Shown here one piece after another: positions 170 through 10,591 of a stretch of DNA of 35,815 nt; the stretch's first letter is position 1, and the number at the start of each line of letters is the position of its first letter. The DNA lies in contig NZ_LGCM01000016.1 of the NCBI RefSeq assembly GCF_001306035.1, positions 1 to 35,815 of the forward strand. The letters are read 5' to 3'. The translations under genes were made by a program, and so were the position numbers. Below the pieces are notes generated by a model that was given only the letters and a program-made list of their open reading frames with translations, had not been told where the DNA came from and made no database searches. The DNA is from Levilinea saccharolytica (GTDB taxonomy: Bacteria > Chloroflexota > Anaerolineae > Anaerolineales > Anaerolineaceae).

Positions 170-297
170 GTATTCATAAGGGTCCATGTAGTTTGGGGTG
201 GAAGTTGCAAATTTGGATCCCAATGGGCTGCATCGGTCCGGGGAGTTTCCAACAAGGCATATCAAGCCGGAAAAACGTGACCATTGCAAGGAGTCGG

Positions 298-1869
298 ATG
301 AAGAAAGCCGCGTCCATCTTTTGGGTGTCTCTGGGTCTTCTCTTGCTGTTATTCACCGCTGCCTGCGGCCCAGAAGAGAATTTTTCGGGTGATTCCCCAG
401 ATCCATCCTATACCGGCGATCCATTATTCCAATCGTATTACGATTCGCTGGGTGGACAGCAGACCTTAGGTACCTTCATCTCAGATGTCATTCAAAAAGA
501 CGGGTTGGACTGCCAGTACACCGAAAACGCACTGCTGTGTCACGACCCCCAGAAACGATCCGACCGCGGCTTCAGCCTGTACCCCCTGGGCCGTGAGCTG
601 CAAATTGCGGATCTTCAGGACGGCCAGCGGAAACCCGGCGACGGTGCCCAAACCAACAACGGCTTTTGGGTGTTTTCCCCCTTCGTAGAACCAGCCCAAA
701 AGTTTGGGGCCGGCCAACCCCTTTCGCGCTACCGACACGATTACGAAAACCAGCAGACTCAGCAGTGGTTCGAAACTGTGGGTTTTTACACCCGCTTTGA
801 CGACCCCACACAGCAAGTGTACCTGTTGCCCTATGGACGCATGGCCTGTAAAGCAGAATGCGGCCCGGGTACAATCGTCCCAGACCTGGCCATCCCCCAA
901 CAGCGATCATCCAACCCCATCCTGGAACAGACAGACCGTCTCCAGGATGCTCGTGTGCTGGGCCGCCAGCTTACAGATATGTATCAGGCCCCCGACGGTT
1001 ACCAGCAAGTTGTTTTTGAAAATGCGGTGGTCTATTTGGAACCGACCAACAATCAGATTGCTCTGCGCCCCCTCAGCCAGCTGCTGAACCTCTATTCGGA
1101 TCTGCCCGGTCCCCAAAAGCACAACCGCAAAGACGGCATGGTCTTTTATCCGCTTTCCAACGGCAAAGGGTTTCATGTGCCGGTGGATTTTGACAATTTT
1201 CTGAACCAGACCATCTCCGGGCAGGATTTGGCGGGTAATCCCATCAGCGGCGTTTATACCGTTTCCGACACCATCGCCCGCCAAAATTTCGAGAATGTGG
1301 CCGTCGAATATCACCGCGACAGCCCCGCGGAATATCGGGTGCGGCTGGCCCCCATTGGACGGCAGTATCTGGAAAAGTTTGGGCAGCCCGCTGCCCCCAG
1401 CCAGCCGCCCGCCCCCCAGCCCGAAGCTGAGCCGCCCGCGGAACCAGAACTGGAGCCCCAGCCCGCAGAACCCCCCCAGGAAATCCCGCAAGCCCCGGTT
1501 CCCCAGGAACCCGAGTTTGCTGAACCCTCCGAAGGCGGCGCCAGCGGACAGCTCGGCTTTGTGTACCGTTCCGCGGATGAAATTCAAGAAGGCGCCGATT
1601 TCAAGGTGTATCTGCTGGTCTTCGACAACATGAACCTGCGCCCGGCCAAAGGCGTCCGCGCACGCATCGAGCTGAACGTGCTGGGCAAGACCAGCACCTA
1701 TGAATACAAATTCCAGGCCACCAACAGCTACGGCTGGGCGGCTGTGGTGGTACCCCCCTTGCCCGATGCTGCCGATTCCAATGTGGTCAATTACAAAATC
1801 TGCGTGGAAGCGCCTGCCGGTGGAACGATCTGTAAAGAGGATTCATTCCTGGTGTGGAACCCGCGCTAA
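298..1869 (+). CDS. Secreted lipoprotein with LGFP-like repeats and a C-terminal Ig-like domain
   Basis: This 523-residue protein starts with a lysine-containing signal peptide and a lipobox ending in Cys23 (TAAC), so it should be lipid-anchored outside the cytoplasmic membrane. The start at 298 has AAGGAG at 288-293; an in-frame extension to 193 would put 35 polar residues ahead of the signal peptide and is rejected. About four degenerate repeats are visible (residues ~54-100, 154-182, 218-260, 309-355), with recurring elements resembling Q-x-FE-N-A/V and a closing P-L/I-G-R. They resemble the LGFP-like or QxFE repeats common in secreted Chloroflexota proteins. A Pro/Glu-rich linker (~362-412) leads to a beta-rich, Ig-like C-terminal domain (~416-523). 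The function is unknown; wall or polysaccharide binding is plausible. It converges on the next gene with a 4-base overlap of stop codons. Confidence 0.8.
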   Translation: MKKAASIFWVSLGLLLLLFTAACGPEENFSGDSPDPSYTGDPLFQSYYDSLGGQQTLGTFISDVIQKDGLDCQYTENALLCHDPQKRSDRGFSLYPLGRELQIADLQDGQRKPGDGAQTNNGFWVFSPFVEPAQKFGAGQPLSRYRHDYENQQTQQWFETVGFYTRFDDPTQQVYLLPYGRMACKAECGPGTIVPDLAIPQQRSSNPILEQTDRLQDARVLGRQLTDMYQAPDGYQQVVFENAVVYLEPTNNQIALRPLSQLLNLYSDLPGPQKHNRKDGMVFYPLSNGKGFHVPVDFDNFLNQTISGQDLAGNPISGVYTVSDTIARQNFENVAVEYHRDSPAEYRVRLAPIGRQYLEKFGQPAAPSQPPAPQPEAEPPAEPELEPQPAEPPQEIPQAPVPQEPEFAEPSEGGASGQLGFVYRSADEIQEGADFKVYLLVFDNMNLRPAKGVRARIELNVLGKTSTYEYKFQATNSYGWAAVVVPPLPDAADSNVVNYKICVEAPAGGTICKEDSFLVWNPR

Positions 1870-2834
1870 GGGCGCGCTTCCACTTCCCAGATCACGCGGT
1901 GAATGCGCTGTCCCAGGCTGTACACCACCCCCCGAAACGCCATTTTTTCGCCGCCCGCCAGGGCGGTTTCATTTTCCCAGCGCCGCACGCCCACCACACG
2001 CCCGTTCGCGTCCAGCGCCACCAGCGCCACCCACAGCGTGGATGCGCCGCCCTCCCCCACTTCTAATTCCCCCTCCACCTGCGCGCTCAGGCCGTCCTGG
2101 CGGATGGTCACGCTTTCGTTCGCCAGCCGCGCTTCTGTGTAACGCCCCCCGCCGTCCCCCACCGGCAGCGCCGACTGCACGCTCACGCTCACCGTCCCAT
2201 CCGTCTCCCAGGGCGGCGGGAAGTACGCCATCAGCGGCAGCCTCCCTCCGGCGGGCAGCCGGTTCAGGGGCAGTTCCGCGCTCTGTGAACGCACCTCGCC
2301 CCCCTCACCCGCCTGCACCGTCATCCGCGCCGAAACCCCCTCCACCGCCTGGTCACCCGGGTTGCGCAGCATGGCAAAGCACCACGCGCCCCCTTCAGCG
2401 CTGCGCAGGCAATTCACTCTTCCAGCGCGCAGCGCCACCGGCGTGGGGCTGGGTAATATTCCATCTTCCAGCGCTTCACTCTGGGCTGAGGGAGGGATCA
2501 CCAGGGAGGTGCCCACCACCAGCAGGCGCGGATCTACCCCAGGGTTGGCCTCCACAATCGCGGCCACGCTCACCCCGTAGCGGTAGGCAATCCCACCCAA
2601 ATCCTCCCCGCGGGCAATGACATGGCTGCGCGGGGTGGGGCTGGGCTGGGGGATGGGGGTGCTGCTGAGCGCGGTGAGGGGGGTGGGGGTTTGCGATGCT
2701 GTCGGCGTTTGATATGCCGCCAGCGTCCCCGTGGGCATATCCGGCGGCGCGGGGGTTAGGCTGGCCTGCGGGCCGCAGCTCGCCGCCGCCGCCAAAAGCA
2801 GCAGTACCCCGAAAGATTTCCAAACGGGTCTCAT
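1866..2834 (-). CDS. LysM-domain lipoprotein
   Basis: The 322-residue protein has a signal peptide with lipobox Cys20 (AASC), then a Thr/Pro-rich linker (~24-68) and one LysM domain (~70-115). The LysM shows a G-E-D-L-x-x-I-A-x-R-Y-G-V pattern and ends in V-I-P-P, the usual glycan-binding fold for peptidoglycan or chitin-like polymers. The remaining ~200 residues are predicted beta-rich (FxxE/LxxN-type bilayer-proximal domain) and I do not recognise them. There is no ribosome binding site upstream; a TATAAT lies 6 bases before the ATG, so the message is probably leaderless. The role is inferred to be envelope-associated and non-catalytic. Confidence 0.8.
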   Translation of the reverse strand: MRPVWKSFGVLLLLAAAASCGPQASLTPAPPDMPTGTLAAYQTPTASQTPTPLTALSSTPIPQPSPTPRSHVIARGEDLGGIAYRYGVSVAAIVEANPGVDPRLLVVGTSLVIPPSAQSEALEDGILPSPTPVALRAGRVNCLRSAEGGAWCFAMLRNPGDQAVEGVSARMTVQAGEGGEVRSQSAELPLNRLPAGGRLPLMAYFPPPWETDGTVSVSVQSALPVGDGGGRYTEARLANESVTIRQDGLSAQVEGELEVGEGGASTLWVALVALDANGRVVGVRRWENETALAGGEKMAFRGVVYSLGQRIHRVIWEVEARP

Positions 2835-2924: not shown

Positions 2925-4745
2925 ATGCCGTCACCCGAAGAGACCATGTTTAACGAAGCCGTCACCGCCCTGAAAAAGGGCGATAAAGCCCGCGCGCGCG
3001 ACCTGCTCACGCGCCTGATTAAACGCGTCCCCACCCAGCCGGATATCTGGCTGTGGATGAGCGCCGCGGTAGAAACCCGCCGCGAGCGTGTATACTGCCT
3101 GAAAGAAGCTCTTCGCCTCGACCCCACCAACCGCACCGCCCGCCACGGCCTGATCCTGGCGGGGGAGCTGCCCCCCGATCCCACCCTGGCCATCCCGCCG
3201 GAGCTTCAGCGCCGCAACTGGGAGTCGCAGTTGGCCGCCTTGCAGGTGCAGCCAGAGCGTGAACTGCTGGGCCTATCCTGGAAACAAATTGCCCTCTATG
3301 CGGCCGCGGCGGTAGTGGTCATCGCCCTGGTCACCGTGGGCATCCTCGGTTTGCGCCAGCGCAGCACCCAGCGGGTGTTTATCCCCTCCTCCGTGCCCAC
3401 CTACGGCCCCACCCCCACCTCGCTGCCTTCGCTGACCCCCGTCTTCCGCAGCCCCACCGTCCCCGCCGTAGGCCCCACCCCACTGTGGATGCTGTTGGAA
3501 GCCACCTACACGCCCACCCCCCTGTACGTCAACACCCCGCATGCGCGCAGCGAAGCCTATTCCATCGCCCTGCGCGCCTACGCCAACGGCCAGTGGGCTG
3601 AGATGGAAGAGTACCTTAAACAAAGCCTGCGCGACGAACCCAACGCCGCAGATTTGCTTTACTACATGGGCGAAACCTACCGCCAGCGCAAGGATACCAA
3701 AACCGCCCTGCGCTATTACGAGCAGGCCATCGCCAAGGATCCCAATTTTGCCCCCGCCTATCTGGGCCGCGCCTACGCTTACCTCGCCAGCCAGCCGCGT
3801 CGTGTGCGGGAGGCCGAGCGCGACCTGAAAACCGCCGTGGAAGCTGACCCTAACTATGCCGAAGCCTATTTGCAGCTGGCCGTCCTCAACCTGGGTGCCA
3901 ACGACCCCGAACAGGCCCTGCGCAATCTGGAAGCCGTCGGTCAGCTTCAACCGGATTCGCCCCTGCTGTATTTTTACCGCGCCAGAGCGCATCTGACCCT
4001 GGGAGATGTCGCCGAGGCCCGCGCTGCCGCCGAACAGGCCAACACCCTGGATAAAACCATGCTGGAAAGCTACCGACTGCTGGCCGAAGTGTGCAGCGCA
4101 GACCAGGACCCCGAATGTACCCTGCAGGCGGTCAACACCTACCTGCTGTATGAACCCAGAGACGCTCAGGCCCTGGCCTGGCAAGGCGGTGCCTATGCCG
4201 CTCTGGACGATTCTGAAGCCGCCCTGGATGCCTTCTCCCGTGCCCTCGAAATCGACCGCAGCCAGGCGGAAATTTTCATCCAGCGCGGCGAGCTGTACCG
4301 CATTTTGGGCGATTATGACAAAGCCATTGTGGATCTGACTCAGGCCATCGGCCTGAATCAGCGTTCCTACGCCGCCCAGTCCACCTTGGGCAAAGTTTTC
4401 TTCGCCCAGGGCGATTATCAGCAGGTGTACAACCGCTTCGCCGCCGCCGACCTGTATGCCGCCACGGATCTGCAAAAAGCCGAAGTGCTTTTCTACCGCG
4501 CCCAGGCGCAGGAGAAGCTCAACCGCGTGCTGCCCGCCATGCAGGATTATCAAAAGCTGCTGGCCATGCCCGCCGAGGTGTATCCCGAAGAATGGGCCGA
4601 ACTGGCCCGCGAACGGCTGACGGCGCTCCACACCCCCACCCGCACCGCCGCCGTCACCACCCCCACCCACACCCGCCAGCCCACGCTGACCCCGCGGCCC
4701 ACGCAAACGCGCCAGCCCACCCTCACCCACACACCCACCCCCTAA
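2925..4745 (+). CDS. Single-pass membrane protein with TPR repeats on both sides
   Basis: This 606-residue protein has a short helical N-terminal TPR-like segment (~8-75), one transmembrane helix (~121-143), a Thr/Pro-rich linker (~150-200), then at least eight consecutive tetratricopeptide repeats (~205-565), recognisable by the recurring A-x-x-x-Y-x-x-A-I/L pattern and the P at the end of each second helix. The C-terminal ~35 residues are a low-complexity T-P/T-R-Q-P repeat tail. TPR arrays are protein-interaction scaffolds; no catalytic domain is present. By the positive-inside rule the long TPR array is most likely external. The start at 2925 fits the promoter; an alternative ATG at 2946 has a GAAGAG just upstream. 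It sits 18 bases before the PBP-like gene and is probably co-transcribed, which suggests a wall or envelope assembly role. Confidence 0.85.
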   Translation: MPSPEETMFNEAVTALKKGDKARARDLLTRLIKRVPTQPDIWLWMSAAVETRRERVYCLKEALRLDPTNRTARHGLILAGELPPDPTLAIPPELQRRNWESQLAALQVQPERELLGLSWKQIALYAAAAVVVIALVTVGILGLRQRSTQRVFIPSSVPTYGPTPTSLPSLTPVFRSPTVPAVGPTPLWMLLEATYTPTPLYVNTPHARSEAYSIALRAYANGQWAEMEEYLKQSLRDEPNAADLLYYMGETYRQRKDTKTALRYYEQAIAKDPNFAPAYLGRAYAYLASQPRRVREAERDLKTAVEADPNYAEAYLQLAVLNLGANDPEQALRNLEAVGQLQPDSPLLYFYRARAHLTLGDVAEARAAAEQANTLDKTMLESYRLLAEVCSADQDPECTLQAVNTYLLYEPRDAQALAWQGGAYAALDDSEAALDAFSRALEIDRSQAEIFIQRGELYRILGDYDKAIVDLTQAIGLNQRSYAAQSTLGKVFFAQGDYQQVYNRFAAADLYAATDLQKAEVLFYRAQAQEKLNRVLPAMQDYQKLLAMPAEVYPEEWAELARERLTALHTPTRTAAVTTPTHTRQPTLTPRPTQTRQPTLTHTPTP

Positions 4746-4763: not shown

Positions 4764-7625
4764 GTGCGCCCCCTCCAACGTTTGCTCCTCGTCCGCCGCC
4801 GACAGCAGGTTCGCCGCCCGCCTTCCTCCGCGGCCCTGCCGGCCTGGCTGTCTGCCTCAGCCCTGGGCGTACTGTTGATCGTCCTGCTCCTGTTCACCGC
4901 GGGCGGAGCCTATGCCCGCCTGACCGCCGGTCTGCCCTCCTTACAGCGCCTCGAAGCAGACCTGAACCCCCGCGACGGTCTGCTGCTGCAGCCCACCCGC
5001 CTGTATGACCGCACCGGACAGAACCTGCTCTACAGCCTGGAATCCCCCGGCATCCCCCGCCGCTATTTATATCTGGATCCCTCCAACCCCGAACATCTCT
5101 CCCCCTATCTGGTGCAGGTCACCGTGGCCCTCAACCAGCCCGATTTCTGGGCCAGCCCTGGGGTGGCCTGGCGCAGCCTGACGGATGAAAGCCCCCGCAC
5201 CCTGGCCGAAGAACTGGTCAGCGATCTGCTTTTGGAAAACGAACCCGCGGGCCTGCGGCGAACCCTGCGCATGCGTTTGCTGGCGGCTCAGGTGACCGCC
5301 CAGTACGGGCGCGCCCAGGTGTTGGAATGGTATCTTAACAGCGCCTATTTTGGCCGCCTGGCCTACGGGGCCGACGCGGCCGCCAACCTGTACCTGGGCA
5401 AATCCGCCAGCCAGTTGGACCTGCCCGAAGCCGTGCTGCTGGCCTCCGTGGCACAATCCCCGGCTCTCAACCCGCTGGATGCGCGCACCGCCGCATTGGA
5501 AAATTATCAAACCGCCCTCCAGCGCCTGCTGGCTCAAGGGGTGATCCAAGCGGACACCTACACCAGCGCCCAGCAAGCCGCCCTCAACCTGCAAGCCCCG
5601 CCCGCCGATGCGGTTCAGCTCAGCCCGGCCTTCAACCGCCTGGTGCTGGATGAACTCTACGCTCGCTTTGGCCGCGGGCGGGTGGAGCGCGGCGGGCTGC
5701 GCGTGATCACCAGCCTGGATTACGACCTTCAGCGTCAAATCAACTGCGCCGCCCGCACCCAGCTGGCCCGCCTGCAGGGGCTGACCGTCTCCGGCGTGGA
5801 AGACTGCGCCGCCGCGCGCCTGCTGCCCACCCTGCCGCCCGCTTCGCAGAGCCTGCCCAGCGGCAGCCTGGCCTCCGCCGCCCTCTTAGACCTGCCCACC
5901 GGGCAGCTTTTGGCCCTGCTGGGCGACACCACCACAGCCGGAGATACGCCGCGCCTTTCGGCCCACCAACCCGGCACGCTGCTGACCCCCTTTACCGCCC
6001 TGACGGCCTTTGCCCGCGGGTTCAGCCCCGCCTCCCTGGTATGGGATATTCCCGCCAGCCTGCCTGCCGATCTGGGGGCCTACCGTCAGCCGGAAACGGC
6101 CTACCGCGGCCCCCAGCGCCTACGTTTGGCCGTCGCCAATGACGACCTGGCTCCCCTGGCTCAACTGCTGTATCAAATCGGCCCGGCCAATACCTGGCGG
6201 CAGGTAGAACCCCTGGGGTTGACCTTGCTGGACGGGCGATCTAACCCCGGTGAGCTGTTTTTCACCGGCGGCAGCGTCAACCTGCTGCAAATTGCCCAGG
6301 CCTACAGCACCTTTGCCAATTTGGGGTTGCAGCGCGGCGCTGCCCGCAGCGCTGGCGGCCCGCTCAACCCGGTGACATTGGTCAGCGTGGAGGACATCCA
6401 CGGGCAGGTGTGGCTGGCGCCCGCCGCCCCCCAGGAAAACTCCCTGGTCAGCCCGCAATTGGCCTATCTGATCCACCACATACTGGCGGATGAGCCTGCC
6501 CGCTGGCCCAGCCTGGGCTACCCCAACCCGCTGGAAACCGGCCGCCCCACCGGCGCCAAAACCGGCCAAACCGCCCGCGGGGATGAGGTGTGGGCGGTGG
6601 GATACAGCCGCCAGATGCTGAGCGTGGTGTGGATGGGGCTGCCCGCCGAGGCCCCTGCCGAGGCGCGTTTGCAGCCGCGCATGGCCGCCGGGTTGTGGCA
6701 CGCGGCTTTTCAATATGCCCACCGCGGCCTGCCTCTGGCCGATTGGCCCGTCCCCGAAGGTCTGTCCACCCTGACGGTATGCACCCCCTCCGGCAAGCTG
6801 CCCACCAGCCAATGCCCCACCCAGGTGGAAGAAATTTTCCTGAGCGGCTCTGAACCCGTCGAGGCCGACGACCTGTACCGCACCGTTCAGGTCAACCGCG
6901 AAACCAACCGCCTGGCCACCGTCTTCACCCCCCGCGAGCTGGTCAAAGAGCAAACCTATCTGGTGGTTCCCAGCGAAGCCCTGCCCTGGGCGCGCGCCGC
7001 GGGCATTGAACTGCCGCCCGACGCCTACGACGACATTTTAGTGCCGGCTCCCCTGCCAGGCGTGGTCATCACCCAGCCGCAGATTTTCTCTTTTGTGCGC
7101 GGGCAGGTGCCCATCCTCGGCGAAGCCGGCGGCGCAGGGTTTGCCTCGTACCGCGTGCAGGTCGGCGCCGGCCTCAACCCGCAGTCTTGGCTGCTGGTGG
7201 GCAGCGAAAGCCAGACCCCCGTCAGCGGCGGCCCCCTGGCCCAATGGGATACCCAGTCTTTGCAGGACGGGCTGTACGCCGTGCGGCTGGTGGTCGTCCG
7301 CCAGGATCAGACCTTGCAAAGCGCCGTCATCCAGGTCAGCGTGGATAACACCCCGCCCCAGGCCGCCCTCACCTACCCCACCCCCCAACAGCGCTTCTCC
7401 CGCGCAGACAGCCGTACGATCAATTTCCTGGCCCAGGTCAGTGACGCCGGCGGCGTCGCCCGCGTGGAATGGTGGCTGGACGGCATCAAGATTAATGAAA
7501 ACCAGCAGGCCCCCTACAGCACCCCCTGGGTTCCCATCCCTGGCGAACATTCCCTGGTGGTGCGTGCCGCAGACCGCGCCGGAAATACCGTGGATTCACC
7601 CGCGGTGATCTTTCGGGTGGAATAA
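4764..7625 (+). CDS. Class A PBP-like protein with both catalytic domains degenerate
   Basis: The 953-residue protein has the layout of a bifunctional class A penicillin-binding protein: membrane anchor (~28-50), GT51-like region (~75-240), transpeptidase-like region (~290-640), and a C-terminal extension (~640-953) with a PBP1-type Cys-containing segment and an Ig-like domain. The GT51 fold signature is clear (VLEWYLNSAYFG at ~186-197; LPEAVLLASVAQSP at ~220-233), but the catalytic motif EDxxFxxHxG reads NQxxFxxSxG (124-133), the QQ motif reads EE (149-150), and the Glu of RKxxE is Met170. In the transpeptidase, SxxK reads TLLT (405-408) and SxN reads DDL (460-462), while KTG is kept (599-601). 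Full-length ORF with no frameshift argues against simple decay. It starts with GTG, 18 bases after the TPR gene. It may be a scaffold or regulator of wall synthesis rather than an enzyme. Confidence 0.85.
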   Translation: MRPLQRLLLVRRRQQVRRPPSSAALPAWLSASALGVLLIVLLLFTAGGAYARLTAGLPSLQRLEADLNPRDGLLLQPTRLYDRTGQNLLYSLESPGIPRRYLYLDPSNPEHLSPYLVQVTVALNQPDFWASPGVAWRSLTDESPRTLAEELVSDLLLENEPAGLRRTLRMRLLAAQVTAQYGRAQVLEWYLNSAYFGRLAYGADAAANLYLGKSASQLDLPEAVLLASVAQSPALNPLDARTAALENYQTALQRLLAQGVIQADTYTSAQQAALNLQAPPADAVQLSPAFNRLVLDELYARFGRGRVERGGLRVITSLDYDLQRQINCAARTQLARLQGLTVSGVEDCAAARLLPTLPPASQSLPSGSLASAALLDLPTGQLLALLGDTTTAGDTPRLSAHQPGTLLTPFTALTAFARGFSPASLVWDIPASLPADLGAYRQPETAYRGPQRLRLAVANDDLAPLAQLLYQIGPANTWRQVEPLGLTLLDGRSNPGELFFTGGSVNLLQIAQAYSTFANLGLQRGAARSAGGPLNPVTLVSVEDIHGQVWLAPAAPQENSLVSPQLAYLIHHILADEPARWPSLGYPNPLETGRPTGAKTGQTARGDEVWAVGYSRQMLSVVWMGLPAEAPAEARLQPRMAAGLWHAAFQYAHRGLPLADWPVPEGLSTLTVCTPSGKLPTSQCPTQVEEIFLSGSEPVEADDLYRTVQVNRETNRLATVFTPRELVKEQTYLVVPSEALPWARAAGIELPPDAYDDILVPAPLPGVVITQPQIFSFVRGQVPILGEAGGAGFASYRVQVGAGLNPQSWLLVGSESQTPVSGGPLAQWDTQSLQDGLYAVRLVVVRQDQTLQSAVIQVSVDNTPPQAALTYPTPQQRFSRADSRTINFLAQVSDAGGVARVEWWLDGIKINENQQAPYSTPWVPIPGEHSLVVRAADRAGNTVDSPAVIFRVE

Positions 7626-8207: not shown

Positions 8208-9320
8208 TTACGGAAGCACCTGCCAGGGGTTCACAAAACCGCCCATGTAGCGCACCTCAAAGTGCAGGTGGGGGCCGGTGGAATTGCCGGTGCTGCCCGC
8301 CAGACCGATATACTGGCCCTGCGAAACACTGGCGCCGCAGCGCACGCCGACCGAACTCAAGTGGGCGTACAGGGTGTGGTAGCCGTTGCCGTGGTCAATC
8401 ATGATCATGTTGCCGTAGCCGCCGCCAATGGGGCCGGCATACACCACCACGCCCGAATCCGCCGCGTACAGCGGCGCACCGGTTCCGGCCGCAATATCGA
8501 TCCCCAGGTGCCCTGACCAATAGTCGTTCCCCGATAAATAGTGGTTATCCGCGGGCCAAACAAACGACCCCGTGCCAAACGCGCCGCCTTCCACCGAGCA
8601 GCCGCCGGGGATGCTCTTCGAGGCTCCCGCGCCCGAACGCCATACCGTCGGCACCACCCAGGTGCGCATTTCACGCCAGCCGCCTGGGATCATCACAAAT
8701 GTGCCGGGTTCAATCTGCGGATTGGTCAAATCCAGCTTGTTCCCCGGCCAACCCACAATGGCCGAAGCATCCACCCGGTAGGTAGACGCCACCTTATCCA
8801 GCGTGTCGCCTTCTTTCCATTGGTAATAAATCCCGTCCGTTGGCGGGATTTTTAGATCCAGTCCAATGCTGATCATGTGGGGGTCGTCGTTTAAAGCCGT
8901 GTAATTGGCCCACAAAATCGTTTCGGGCTTCAGGTCGTATTTGTTGGCAATCCCAAACATGGAATCGCCCTTTTGCACCGTGTATTCCACCACCTTATCC
9001 CGCGCACGGGTGGGCAGAACGGTGTGCCCGTTGGTTTCGCGGGCAATGGCACCCTCCACCGGATCCGCCGGAACAAAGGTGGGCAAGGGTACGCTGGGCG
9101 CCGTGTGCAGGGATTCCAATACCTCGCTGTCCACCGCCGCCGCTGCCTCGGCCTCGCTCTGCGCAGAGACCTTAAAGGGAATGCGGTCGCGTCCGATCAC
9201 CAAAAAGACAGTAAACACCACCATAAAGATGGCAACCCCCCACAGAGTTCCGGAAAACAGATTCAGTGCGATGCCCCACCCCTGAGTCAGTTTTCGCTGT
9301 GGGCCAAGCTTTTGTTTCAC
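8208..9320 (-). CDS. Membrane-anchored LysM / M23 (LytM) peptidase
   Basis: From the GTG at 9320 the protein has 370 residues: a transmembrane helix (~18-43), two LysM domains (~111-160 and ~165-213), and a C-terminal M23 domain (~255-370). The zinc site is complete: H271-x3-D275 and the H351-L-H353 motif, with H320 as the catalytic His. M23 enzymes are metalloendopeptidases that cleave peptidoglycan cross-bridges; a membrane-tethered, LysM-bearing version could act in wall remodelling. The start is set by GGAGG at ~9324-9328 and by the GTGA overlap with the rho stop; the in-frame extension to 9470 lies inside rho and is rejected. It is co-transcribed with rho and translationally coupled to it. 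Confidence 0.9.
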   Translation of the reverse strand: MKQKLGPQRKLTQGWGIALNLFSGTLWGVAIFMVVFTVFLVIGRDRIPFKVSAQSEAEAAAAVDSEVLESLHTAPSVPLPTFVPADPVEGAIARETNGHTVLPTRARDKVVEYTVQKGDSMFGIANKYDLKPETILWANYTALNDDPHMISIGLDLKIPPTDGIYYQWKEGDTLDKVASTYRVDASAIVGWPGNKLDLTNPQIEPGTFVMIPGGWREMRTWVVPTVWRSGAGASKSIPGGCSVEGGAFGTGSFVWPADNHYLSGNDYWSGHLGIDIAAGTGAPLYAADSGVVVYAGPIGGGYGNMIMIDHGNGYHTLYAHLSSVGVRCGASVSQGQYIGLAGSTGNSTGPHLHFEVRYMGGFVNPWQVLP

Positions 9321-10591
9321 ATATCCTCCGTTAAGCTTTCCAGGAATTCCTGGTTGTTCTTGGTGCGGCTCAGCCGCTGCAAAATGGCTTCGGTTCCCAC
9401 CGCCGGGTCCATACCCGCGCCCTGAGGCGGCTGGCCGATCATTTGCAGATACATGCGCCGCATCAGCCACGCCCGCGAAAGCATATCCGGCCCTAAGAGC
9501 AAATCTTCGCGCCGGGTCGAGGAGCGTTCGATGTCAATCGCGGGGAAGATGCGCCGTTCCTGCAATCTGCGCGACAGGTGCAGTTCCATGTTGCCGGTGC
9601 CCTTAAATTCTTCGTAGACCACATCATCCAGGCGCGAACCGGTGTCTACCAAGGCCGTGGCGATGATGGTCAGCGAGCCGCCTTCTTCCAAATTACGCGC
9701 GGCGCCGAAGAAGCGTTTGGGCGGGTACAAGGCCGAGGGGTCCATACCGCCCGAAAGCGTGCGGCCCGAAGGGTTGACCACCAGGTTATACGCCCGCGCC
9801 AGGCGGGTGAGCGAATCCATCAAAATGACCACATCGCGGCCCACTTCCACCAGGCGTTTGGCCCGTTCCAGGGTGATTTCGGCCGTGCGCACATGCGAAG
9901 ACACCGGCTCATCAAAGGTCGAAGCCACCACTTCCGCGTCCACCGAGCGGTCCATATCGGTGACTTCTTCCGGGCGCTCGCCGATGAGGGCGATGATCAG
10001 ATGCACTTCGGGGTTGCGCACCGAGATGGAATTGGCAATTTGCTTCATGATGGTCGTCTTGCCCGCCTTGGGGGGCGAAACGATCATACCGCGCTGCCCG
10101 CGCCCGATGGGCGAGATCAAGTTAATCAGGCGCGTGGATAAAATGCCGCGGTCGGTTTCCAGGTCAAAGCGTTTGTCGGGGAAAATGGGGGTCAGGCTCT
10201 CAAAATTCGGGCGGTTGCGGGCCTCTTCGGGCGTTAAACCGTTAATGCTTTCCACTTTGAGCAGCCCGTAATGGCGTTCCGAATCACGCGGGGGGCGCAC
10301 ATGCCCGATGACCAAATCCCCGGCGCGCAGGTCATAGCGGCGCAGTTGGGCCTGGGACACATACACATCATCCTGGCCCACTTGATAATTGGTGCGCAGA
10401 AAGCCGATGCCCTCATTCATGATTTCCAGGACACCGCCGCGAACTTCCAATCCTTCCCGCTCAGCCTCCACCTGCCGGATGCGGATCAGCAGGTTTTCCT
10501 TTTTGAGGCGGGCGGCGTTGGGAATGTTCAGCTCCTTGGCCGTCTCACGCAGCGACGCGAGTGGAACGTTTTCGAGTTCTAATATTTTCAT
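9317..10591 (-). CDS. rho: Transcription termination factor Rho
   Basis: The 424-residue protein has the full Rho architecture. The N-terminal helical bundle (~1-45) precedes a cold-shock-like RNA-binding domain (~50-120; GFLRTN segment), and the RecA-like ATPase follows with Walker A (SPPKAGKTT), Walker B (VILMDSLTRLARAYN) and the Q/R-loop region (GGMDPSALYPPKRFFGAARN). It is an RNA-dependent helicase that terminates untranslated transcripts. The start at 10591 (MKILELEN) is chosen because the longer frame upstream (to 10753) adds 54 residues not typical of the family and covers the leader. The message has a leader of about 190 bases. The next gene, an M23 peptidase, begins within the stop codon. 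Confidence 0.97.
   Translation of the reverse strand: MKILELENVPLASLRETAKELNIPNAARLKKENLLIRIRQVEAEREGLEVRGGVLEIMNEGIGFLRTNYQVGQDDVYVSQAQLRRYDLRAGDLVIGHVRPPRDSERHYGLLKVESINGLTPEEARNRPNFESLTPIFPDKRFDLETDRGILSTRLINLISPIGRGQRGMIVSPPKAGKTTIMKQIANSISVRNPEVHLIIALIGERPEEVTDMDRSVDAEVVASTFDEPVSSHVRTAEITLERAKRLVEVGRDVVILMDSLTRLARAYNLVVNPSGRTLSGGMDPSALYPPKRFFGAARNLEEGGSLTIIATALVDTGSRLDDVVYEEFKGTGNMELHLSRRLQERRIFPAIDIERSSTRREDLLLGPDMLSRAWLMRRMYLQMIGQPPQGAGMDPAVGTEAILQRLSRTKNNQEFLESLTEDM

Follow-up and report, generated by a model that had tools for sequence, protein, structure and literature searches.

Class A penicillin-binding proteins (PBPs) are laid out as an N-terminal membrane helix followed by a GT51 glycosyltransferase domain and a transpeptidase domain, and whether these proteins also have non-catalytic structural roles is hard to test by point mutants. 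The class A PBP fold is already known, and so are pseudoenzymes; a literature search of open-licence papers, aimed in part at inactive PBPs, turned up no class A PBP that is dead in both domains and also conserved across an order. The gene considered here lies in a stretch of 35,815 nucleotides from Levilinea saccharolytica (contig NZ_LGCM01000016.1, positions 1 to 35,815; hereafter the window) and encodes a class A PBP homologue in which the catalytic residues of both domains are substituted. We put at roughly 60% the probability that this protein is a conserved class A PBP orthologue that lost both catalytic functions and is kept as a non-catalytic scaffold or allosteric partner of wall synthesis. 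Counts out of 142 refer to the rows without the active pattern in a set of 165 homologues, the window protein being included among the 142, and the 23 rows with the active pattern are used as the comparison. Residue r of the window protein starts at nucleotide 4764+3(r-1), and its features are the following.

4764 to 7625, forward strand: coding sequence of the double-pseudoenzyme class A PBP, 953 residues in a single open frame with a GTG start.
4833 to 4925, forward strand: N-terminal membrane helix, residues 24-54, from a helix in the AlphaFold2 model and a hydrophobic run.
4989 to 5603, forward strand: GT51 domain, residues ~76-280, catalytic residues lost, from a Pfam Transgly match and fold matches.
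5133 to 5162, forward strand: GT51 motif I, EDxxFxxHxG changed to NQxxFxxSxG (NQPDFWASPG, residues 124-133; the catalytic Glu is N124), from the alignments.
5199 to 5225, forward strand: GT51 motif II, TxTQQLxxN changed to TLAEELVSD, with a deletion of ~11 residues before it, from the alignments.
5259 to 5273, forward strand: GT51 motif III, RKxxE changed to RTLRM (the second Glu is M170, nucleotides 5271-5273), from the alignments.
5868 to 6743, forward strand: transpeptidase domain, residues ~369-660, catalytic residues lost, with the fold predicted as retained by AlphaFold2 and PF00905 unmatched.
5976 to 5987, forward strand: SxxK changed to TLLT, residues 405-408, with the Lys kept in 0 of 142 rows.
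6141 to 6149, forward strand: SxN changed to DDL, residues 460-462 (D460).
6558 to 6566, forward strand: KTG retained, residues 599-601; in most rows K599 is present or absent along with D460.
6780 to 6815, forward strand: Cys673 and Cys684 of a PBP1C-type tail, with Cys at both places in 142 of 142 rows.
7062 to 7619, forward strand: two C-terminal Ig-like beta domains, residues 767-860 and 865-952, from AlphaFold2 strands and a Pfam Big_7 match at 865-933.

The positions of the catalytic residues were obtained from four alignments: MAFFT L-INS-i with E. coli PBP1A, PBP1B, and PbpC; hhalign of a pseudoenzyme set (61 rows) against an active set (23 rows), each aligned separately; phmmer of the window protein against the PDB chain 7u4h; and a profile of 46 pseudoenzyme and eight active rows against this same chain. 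All four give the same catalytic registers, which rejects misalignment as the reason why the window protein shows neither a Glu nor a Ser/Lys pair there. According to the first of them, E233 of PBP1B corresponds to N124, E290 to M170, S510 to T405, K513 to T408, S572 to D460, N574 to L462, and K698 to K599, and the QQ pair of motif II is replaced by EE at residues 149-150 (nucleotides 5208-5213). We take E233 and E290 to be the two catalytic glutamates of GT51, and the roles of the other PBP1B active-site residues are likewise assumed. Also, K274, N275, and K287 of PBP1B, presumably contacts of lipid II or moenomycin, are lost in most pseudoenzyme rows. Moreover, GT motifs I and II are separated by 22-23 residues in 104 of the 142 pseudoenzyme rows and by 33-34 in 20 of the 23 active ones, although the active length is nonetheless found in 17 pseudoenzyme rows. 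An earlier note, made from the letters of the DNA, had described these substituted GT51 (NQxxFxxSxG, EE, and Met) and transpeptidase (TLLT and DDL) motifs, a retained KTG, an Ig-like tail, and an intact frame. All of these are recovered, the tail being formed by two Ig-like domains, and the proposal of a double pseudoenzyme stood when a Glu or a Ser/Lys pair was looked for at the catalytic positions of the window protein and none was present.

Homologues were searched for in 61 genomes (the own genome and 60 relatives) and in a collection of species genomes, and were found across the order, with cultured carriers that include Anaerolinea thermolimosa, Ornatilinea apprima, Longilinea arvoryzae, and Bellilinea caldifistulae. 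Among the 261 genomes of the order that are at least 90% complete, 208 have a homologue at E<=1e-75, active orthologues included, and four (G136, G222, G225, and G252) have two strong matches each. A first set held 70 rows without the active pattern, none of which keeps both GT glutamates, and 16 orthologues with all motifs; from 94 new loci, 74 were added (18 were duplicates and two were short). In the larger set, K513 is kept in none of the 142 rows, K287 in one, E233 and N574 in five each, S572 in eight, E290 in 49, and K698 in 97, and both GT glutamates are found together in a single row, L213 (G211:C36:6000-9200), which lacks K287 and the QQ pair. The universal loss of the SxxK Lys and the almost universal loss of the glutamate pair support a double pseudoenzyme; as far as sequence goes, the loss of the motifs is well shown, and the absence of catalysis would follow from the residues.

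In a tree of 93 rows, computed with the motif columns removed, the 70 pseudoenzyme rows group in a single clade, which has an SH-aLRT support of 95 and is nested within active homologues, and the state changes once. This tree omits rows that repeat the query or the E. coli references (L002, L003, L096-L098), fragments or one-domain rows (L028, L073, L080, L087, L091, L116-L118), and PbpC and the actinobacterial L094 and L095; the 165-row tree also omits the long-branch pseudoenzyme rows L109 and L113, both counted among the 70. In the latter tree, built under a plain LG model and accompanied by a program warning of long branches meeting, 141 of the 142 rows fall in one clade (SH-aLRT 100), nested among motif-intact homologues, with two state changes and L083 outside. 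The position of L083 is unstable, being inside the pseudoenzyme clade in the 93-row tree, and a second, independent loss is possible in this case. Both sites of the protein (L083:7773-10736, forward strand) are changed in a different way from the main clade. From the gene tree, read together with the family codes, the catalytic loss happened most simply once, before the carrier families diverged. A shared loss by chance is refuted because 141 rows without the active pattern are in one clade while 40 paralogues have the pattern, and an assembly error or a single-genome oddity is ruled out by the family of 142 rows. Also, the seven genomes with an active orthologue (G038, G039, G045, G046, G050, G052, and G058) have no further match as strong as that of a pseudoenzyme, their weaker matches having been partly read, which fits orthologous descent and not an extra copy. 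Regarding the order of events, five members of family f5 (L214, L215, L217, L218, and L228) keep SYN and the Lys at the KTG position, but their GT motif I is without a Glu, and Met or Ile stands where SxxK has its Lys. These intermediates suggest that the GT Glu and the SxxK Lys were probably lost before the Ser-to-Asp change.

The 40 paralogues are a chosen subset of the weaker matches in the 61-genome search and come from 34 genomes of the order, of which 27 carry the pseudoenzyme, five show none, and two have an active orthologue. The transpeptidase motifs are kept in all 40 and E233 in 39, the remaining one being cut. The own genome of the window encodes one active GT51 protein (L001), three more proteins that match PF00905 well, and SEDS proteins. 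As a separate observation, a stretch of at least 4,001 bases is present twice, inverted and 100% identical (L270, G000:C4:20500-24500, and L271, G000:C4:96500-101500), a duplication that may be an assembly artefact; it carries a frame of 910 residues matching SEDS PF01098 and the start of PF00905, which may be a SEDS-PBP fusion.

Concerning the structure, AlphaFold2 with a 54-row alignment predicts an intact fold for the pseudoenzyme (mean predicted local distance difference test score, pLDDT, of 90.5 and predicted template modeling score of 0.74). Foldseek places this model among class A PBPs (PBP2 chain 3dwk, E 1.7e-28), and VIA-align superimposes it on H. influenzae PBP1A (PDB code: 5u2g) with Z 35.9 and a root mean square deviation of 7.7 over 528 residues, and on 7u4h with Z 34.0 and a deviation of 2.9 over 399 residues. 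The conservation of both folds that the earlier note had read from the translation is in agreement with the predicted class A PBP fold. The window protein reaches 70.8 bits against PF00912, for which the cut-off is 27. An annotation based on domains would therefore list it among the glycosyltransferases and give too high a number of wall synthases in such genomes. On the other hand, no match to PF00905 is obtained at E<=1e-3, a model that gives 80.1 bits for the active paralogue L001 and 63.2 for the active orthologue L107; weak matches persist in some pseudoenzymes (L037, 24.1; L045, 24.0; L060, 22.2 bits). With the PBP1A family model TIGR02074, the window protein scores 189.8 bits, below the curated cut-off of 508.75, but this cut-off does not separate dead from active proteins here because L107 (472.0) and L001 (482.7) are below it as well. 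A PHROGs search of the window protein found nothing. The membrane helix is taken as placing the rest of the protein outside the cytoplasm, Cys673 and Cys684 likely form a disulfide, and the second of the two tail domains is the one that Pfam recognizes as Big_7.

The pseudoenzyme family is under purifying selection. The ratio of nonsynonymous to synonymous substitution rates (dN/dS) between the window gene and its nearest relative, L004, is 0.078 overall and 0.02-0.11 across six regions, and the values are 0.08-0.23 for five other pseudoenzyme pairs and 0.06-0.21 for three active pairs, in a comparison without the pairs L214/L215 and L222/L227. All 142 rows used have at least 790 residues, shorter rows having been removed beforehand. 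Moreover, the substituted residues are themselves conserved, being A148 present in 115 of the 142 rows, where 23 of 23 active rows have Thr, and Asp at position 460 in 101 of 142 versus Ser in 23 of 23.

Within the former transpeptidase cleft, the columns of D460 and K599 tend to change together. Asp occurs with Lys, Arg, or His at 599 in 99 rows and without a basic residue in two; a residue other than Asp is accompanied by a basic one in eight rows, six of which have the older Ser-Lys pair, and neither is present in 33. When independent pairs on the tree are compared without the eight Ser rows, seven are available; 5.9 of them change the same way and 0 the opposite way, at a median p of 0.031 (range 0.031-0.0625). 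In the correlation with D460, K599 ranks second of 199 other columns, and W427, just below, is no novelty, since it is present in 6 of the 23 active rows. This covariation supports a putative contact between D460 and K599 in the former cleft. The co-retention of both residues could also be expected if the remodeled clefts catalyzed another reaction, for example through Asp460-Lys599, or through E290 in the 49 rows that keep it. However, in 33 of the 41 rows without D460 the residue at 599 is not basic either, with the remainder of the protein still present, and in the GT domain the loop is shortened and the basic residues are lost in most rows, and we consider a changed enzyme improbable.

The neighborhood of the pseudoenzyme gene in the window includes the following genes.

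193 to 1869, forward strand: protein with a lipoprotein-like start, a syntenic neighbor with no Pfam or NCBIfam match at E<=1e-3.
1866 to 2834, reverse strand: LysM protein with a lipoprotein-like start, a syntenic neighbor not co-lost with the PBP, from Pfam, synteny, and genome search.
2925 to 4745, forward strand: TPR protein whose gene lies 18 bp before that of the PBP; it has one membrane helix, at residues 119-141, and a large array of TPRs in its C-terminal part, from Pfam, synteny, and AlphaFold2.
8208 to 9470, reverse strand: M23 peptidase, from Pfam.

The predicted model of the TPR protein (mean pLDDT 78.9) has a short N-terminal domain of helical repeats and, after the membrane helix, a large superhelix of TPRs that would be extracytoplasmic, and its best PDB matches are consensus TPR proteins and OGT. 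Its gene is directly upstream of the pseudoenzyme in 29 of 37 loci of the 48-row clade that holds the window, a clade that, judging from named relatives, we take as Anaerolineaceae of the order Anaerolineales (family code f1); the 37 loci are those with enough upstream sequence, ten more being too short and the window itself uncounted. Searched with phmmer and the TPR protein of the window (E<=1e-5, same strand, within 400 bases), a procedure by which a diverged TPR protein could be missed, no such gene is beside the PBP in 62 other pseudoenzyme loci or in 16 active loci, the latter including outgroup and paralogous PBPs. The TPR gene is a probable operon partner of the PBP in the clade of the window, whereas its absence from the 62 loci makes it unlikely to be the original or only partner, and the proposal of an obligate partner is unsupported outside that clade. 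The TPR gene that the earlier note placed in an operon with the PBP is a conserved neighbor in this clade and not in the pseudoenzyme family at large.

Among 85 f1 genomes at least 90% complete, both genes are present in 36 (37 with a contig-edge fragment in G002), neither in 29, and the TPR gene without the pseudoenzyme in three, the TPR gene running to the contig end in G107 and G081 and the absence of the pseudoenzyme being genuine in G022. In the 28 genomes of genus codes g11, g16, g17, and g33, no match of pseudoenzyme strength is found; none of them has a match to the TPR protein, all 28 keep MreC, and 26 keep the LysM gene. The absence of the pseudoenzyme is judged by score, and in G011, G016, and G017, where the remaining match was read, it is an intact paralogue. 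The TPR gene tracks the pseudoenzyme more closely than the LysM neighbor does, over few independent events. The LysM gene was rejected as a co-evolving partner, being syntenic yet kept in almost all of these pseudoenzyme-lacking genomes, and a dependence on the elongasome was likewise rejected, as MreC is present in 83 of the 85 genomes, with or without the pseudoenzyme.

The architecture predicted for the TPR protein would also suit a peptidoglycan or beta-lactam sensor, whose old sites would hold stem peptide, glycan, or antibiotic without converting it and would signal via the membrane helix or the TPR protein. In the same sense, the transpeptidase fold is predicted as kept, the K599 column retains its Lys in most rows, and the nucleophile position is Ser or Thr in 125 of 142. 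Nonetheless, the SxxK Lys is lost in all 142 rows and the SxN Asn in 137, which makes acylation and normal substrate contacts unlikely, and no signaling gene is found among the annotated neighbor groups, the remaining groups being unannotated. For these reasons, a sensor appears unlikely.

With respect to the other neighbors, the M23 peptidase pointed out in the earlier note is present, but neither it nor Rho is a conserved neighbor among the loci compared, whose flank lengths differ, and both were discarded as functional neighbors; they are beside the PBP gene only in the own genus of the window and in L101. In L101, an active orthologue is followed by Rho and an M23 peptidase on the same strand. 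In the window, the Rho and M23 genes lie convergently downstream of the pseudoenzyme. Relatives of the protein encoded at 193-1869 are found near the PBP in 13 loci. The upstream genes in other families gave no functional lead, most neighbor groups being unannotated; by reading of the sequences they presumably include folate genes, and one of them encodes a protein of 437 residues with weak zinc-ribbon matches.

The lipoprotein-like neighbors, together with the two Ig-like domains of the tail, might instead indicate a role in an external layer or filament envelope, with the Ig-like domains as an adhesin-like anchor and not in peptidoglycan synthesis. Two papers describe multilayered envelopes and outer layers shared along filaments in other members of the phylum (PMC13319060, PMC7332563), in line with such a role. 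However, the same tail domain is found in an active orthologue (Big_7 in L107), and in family f12 the frames are mostly of ~830-900 residues, with L030 having no Big_7 match, while the dead synthase domains are kept. A role of this kind therefore seems quite doubtful.

We thus return to a non-catalytic scaffold or allosteric partner of wall synthesis. As the sequences and the gene tree show, the gene is the local orthologue of an ordinary class A PBP that lost both catalytic centers. It has since been maintained, with open frames and a low dN/dS, as a membrane-anchored protein that is predicted to be folded and is presumably non-catalytic. Its most likely contacts would be with further proteins of wall synthesis or with peptidoglycan, whether nascent or mature, made by the GT helices and transpeptidase body that are preserved, by the tail with its Cys pair, and by the Ig domains. 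By such contacts it would place, or regulate allosterically, the active class A PBP of its own genome or the SEDS/class B synthases encoded there. In the main clade, the transpeptidase cleft would be remodeled, with an Asp in place of the SxN Ser that may pair with the retained KTG Lys, as the covariation suggests. In the clade taken as Anaerolineaceae, the co-encoded TPR protein would be a later, family-specific gain, and synteny and co-absence make it the best candidate partner, which presumably binds the pseudoenzyme. The structural or regulatory partnership in wall synthesis put forward in the earlier note is plausible in this light. A more detailed version, in which the protein is an order-wide, vertically inherited, non-catalytic wall-synthase subunit whose cleft is closed by an Asp-Lys lock and which is run via a TPR receptor in Anaerolineaceae, is tentative and somewhat less probable than not.

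Several observations weigh against this interpretation. First, the 28 genomes of four genus codes with only paralogue-strength matches have MreC, and the pseudoenzyme gene is dispensable over evolution. Also, some lineages (f13, f2, and f9 in part) are far more eroded, and several f12 matches show one to three apparent internal stop codons. These same features would be expected from a slow pseudogenization of an unneeded PBP; nonetheless, dN/dS values comparable to those of active pairs, the length retained in the rows used, and the conservation of the new residues make this explanation highly improbable. Second, E290 in 49 rows, both GT glutamates in L213, and Ser or Thr at the nucleophile position in 125 rows are compatible with some residual chemistry, which is possible from the sequence data. 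Third, the first and smaller set gave a median p of 0.0625 for D460/K599, and in the correlation with D460 the column just ahead of K599 is that of G182, in the GT domain, which indicates that shared ancestry contributes to the correlation. Finally, the pseudoenzyme occurs without the TPR gene in 15 of the 85 f1 genomes (16 with a fragment in G076), and G022 (L266, G022:C16) keeps the TPR gene while a different frame occupies the place of the pseudoenzyme.

A full class A PBP without either catalytic center is retained in many families of the order, alongside active paralogues, and stepwise intermediates are left in the five f5 members described above. If the interpretation is true, this would provide a natural separation-of-function test of the non-catalytic roles of class A PBPs, and the cultured carriers make the hypothesis testable. 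Also, G022 offers a natural case for the TPR protein acting alone, and the glutamate pair of L213 is either a retained or a regained feature.

Compared with class A PBPs of the PBP1A/PBP1C type (PF00912 plus PF00905, TIGR02074), the window protein is alike in domain order, membrane helix, predicted fold, and descent, and differs in the substitution of both centers, the shortened GT loop, and the missing PF00905 match. The two-Cys tail and the Ig-like C-terminal domain are shared with E. coli PbpC (PBP1C), the tail scoring 23.3 bits with BiPBP_C, just under the cut-off of 26.8, and the protein 161 bits with TIGR02073; however, in the alignment PbpC keeps ED, SxxK, SxN, and KTG, whereas the window protein keeps KTG only. 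For the TPR neighbor, a loose functional analog could be LpoA of E. coli, which one report describes as a TPR-like-domain protein outside the cytoplasm acting on a class A PBP, with the C-terminal domain and not the TPR-like N-terminal domain binding PBP1A (PMC4111904). By comparison, the TPR protein of the window is predicted to have a membrane helix and a canonical TPR superhelix and adjoins a dead PBP, and the likeness is drawn from synteny and co-occurrence. Finally, as in pseudoenzyme regulators generally, an inactive paralogue is retained alongside an active one.

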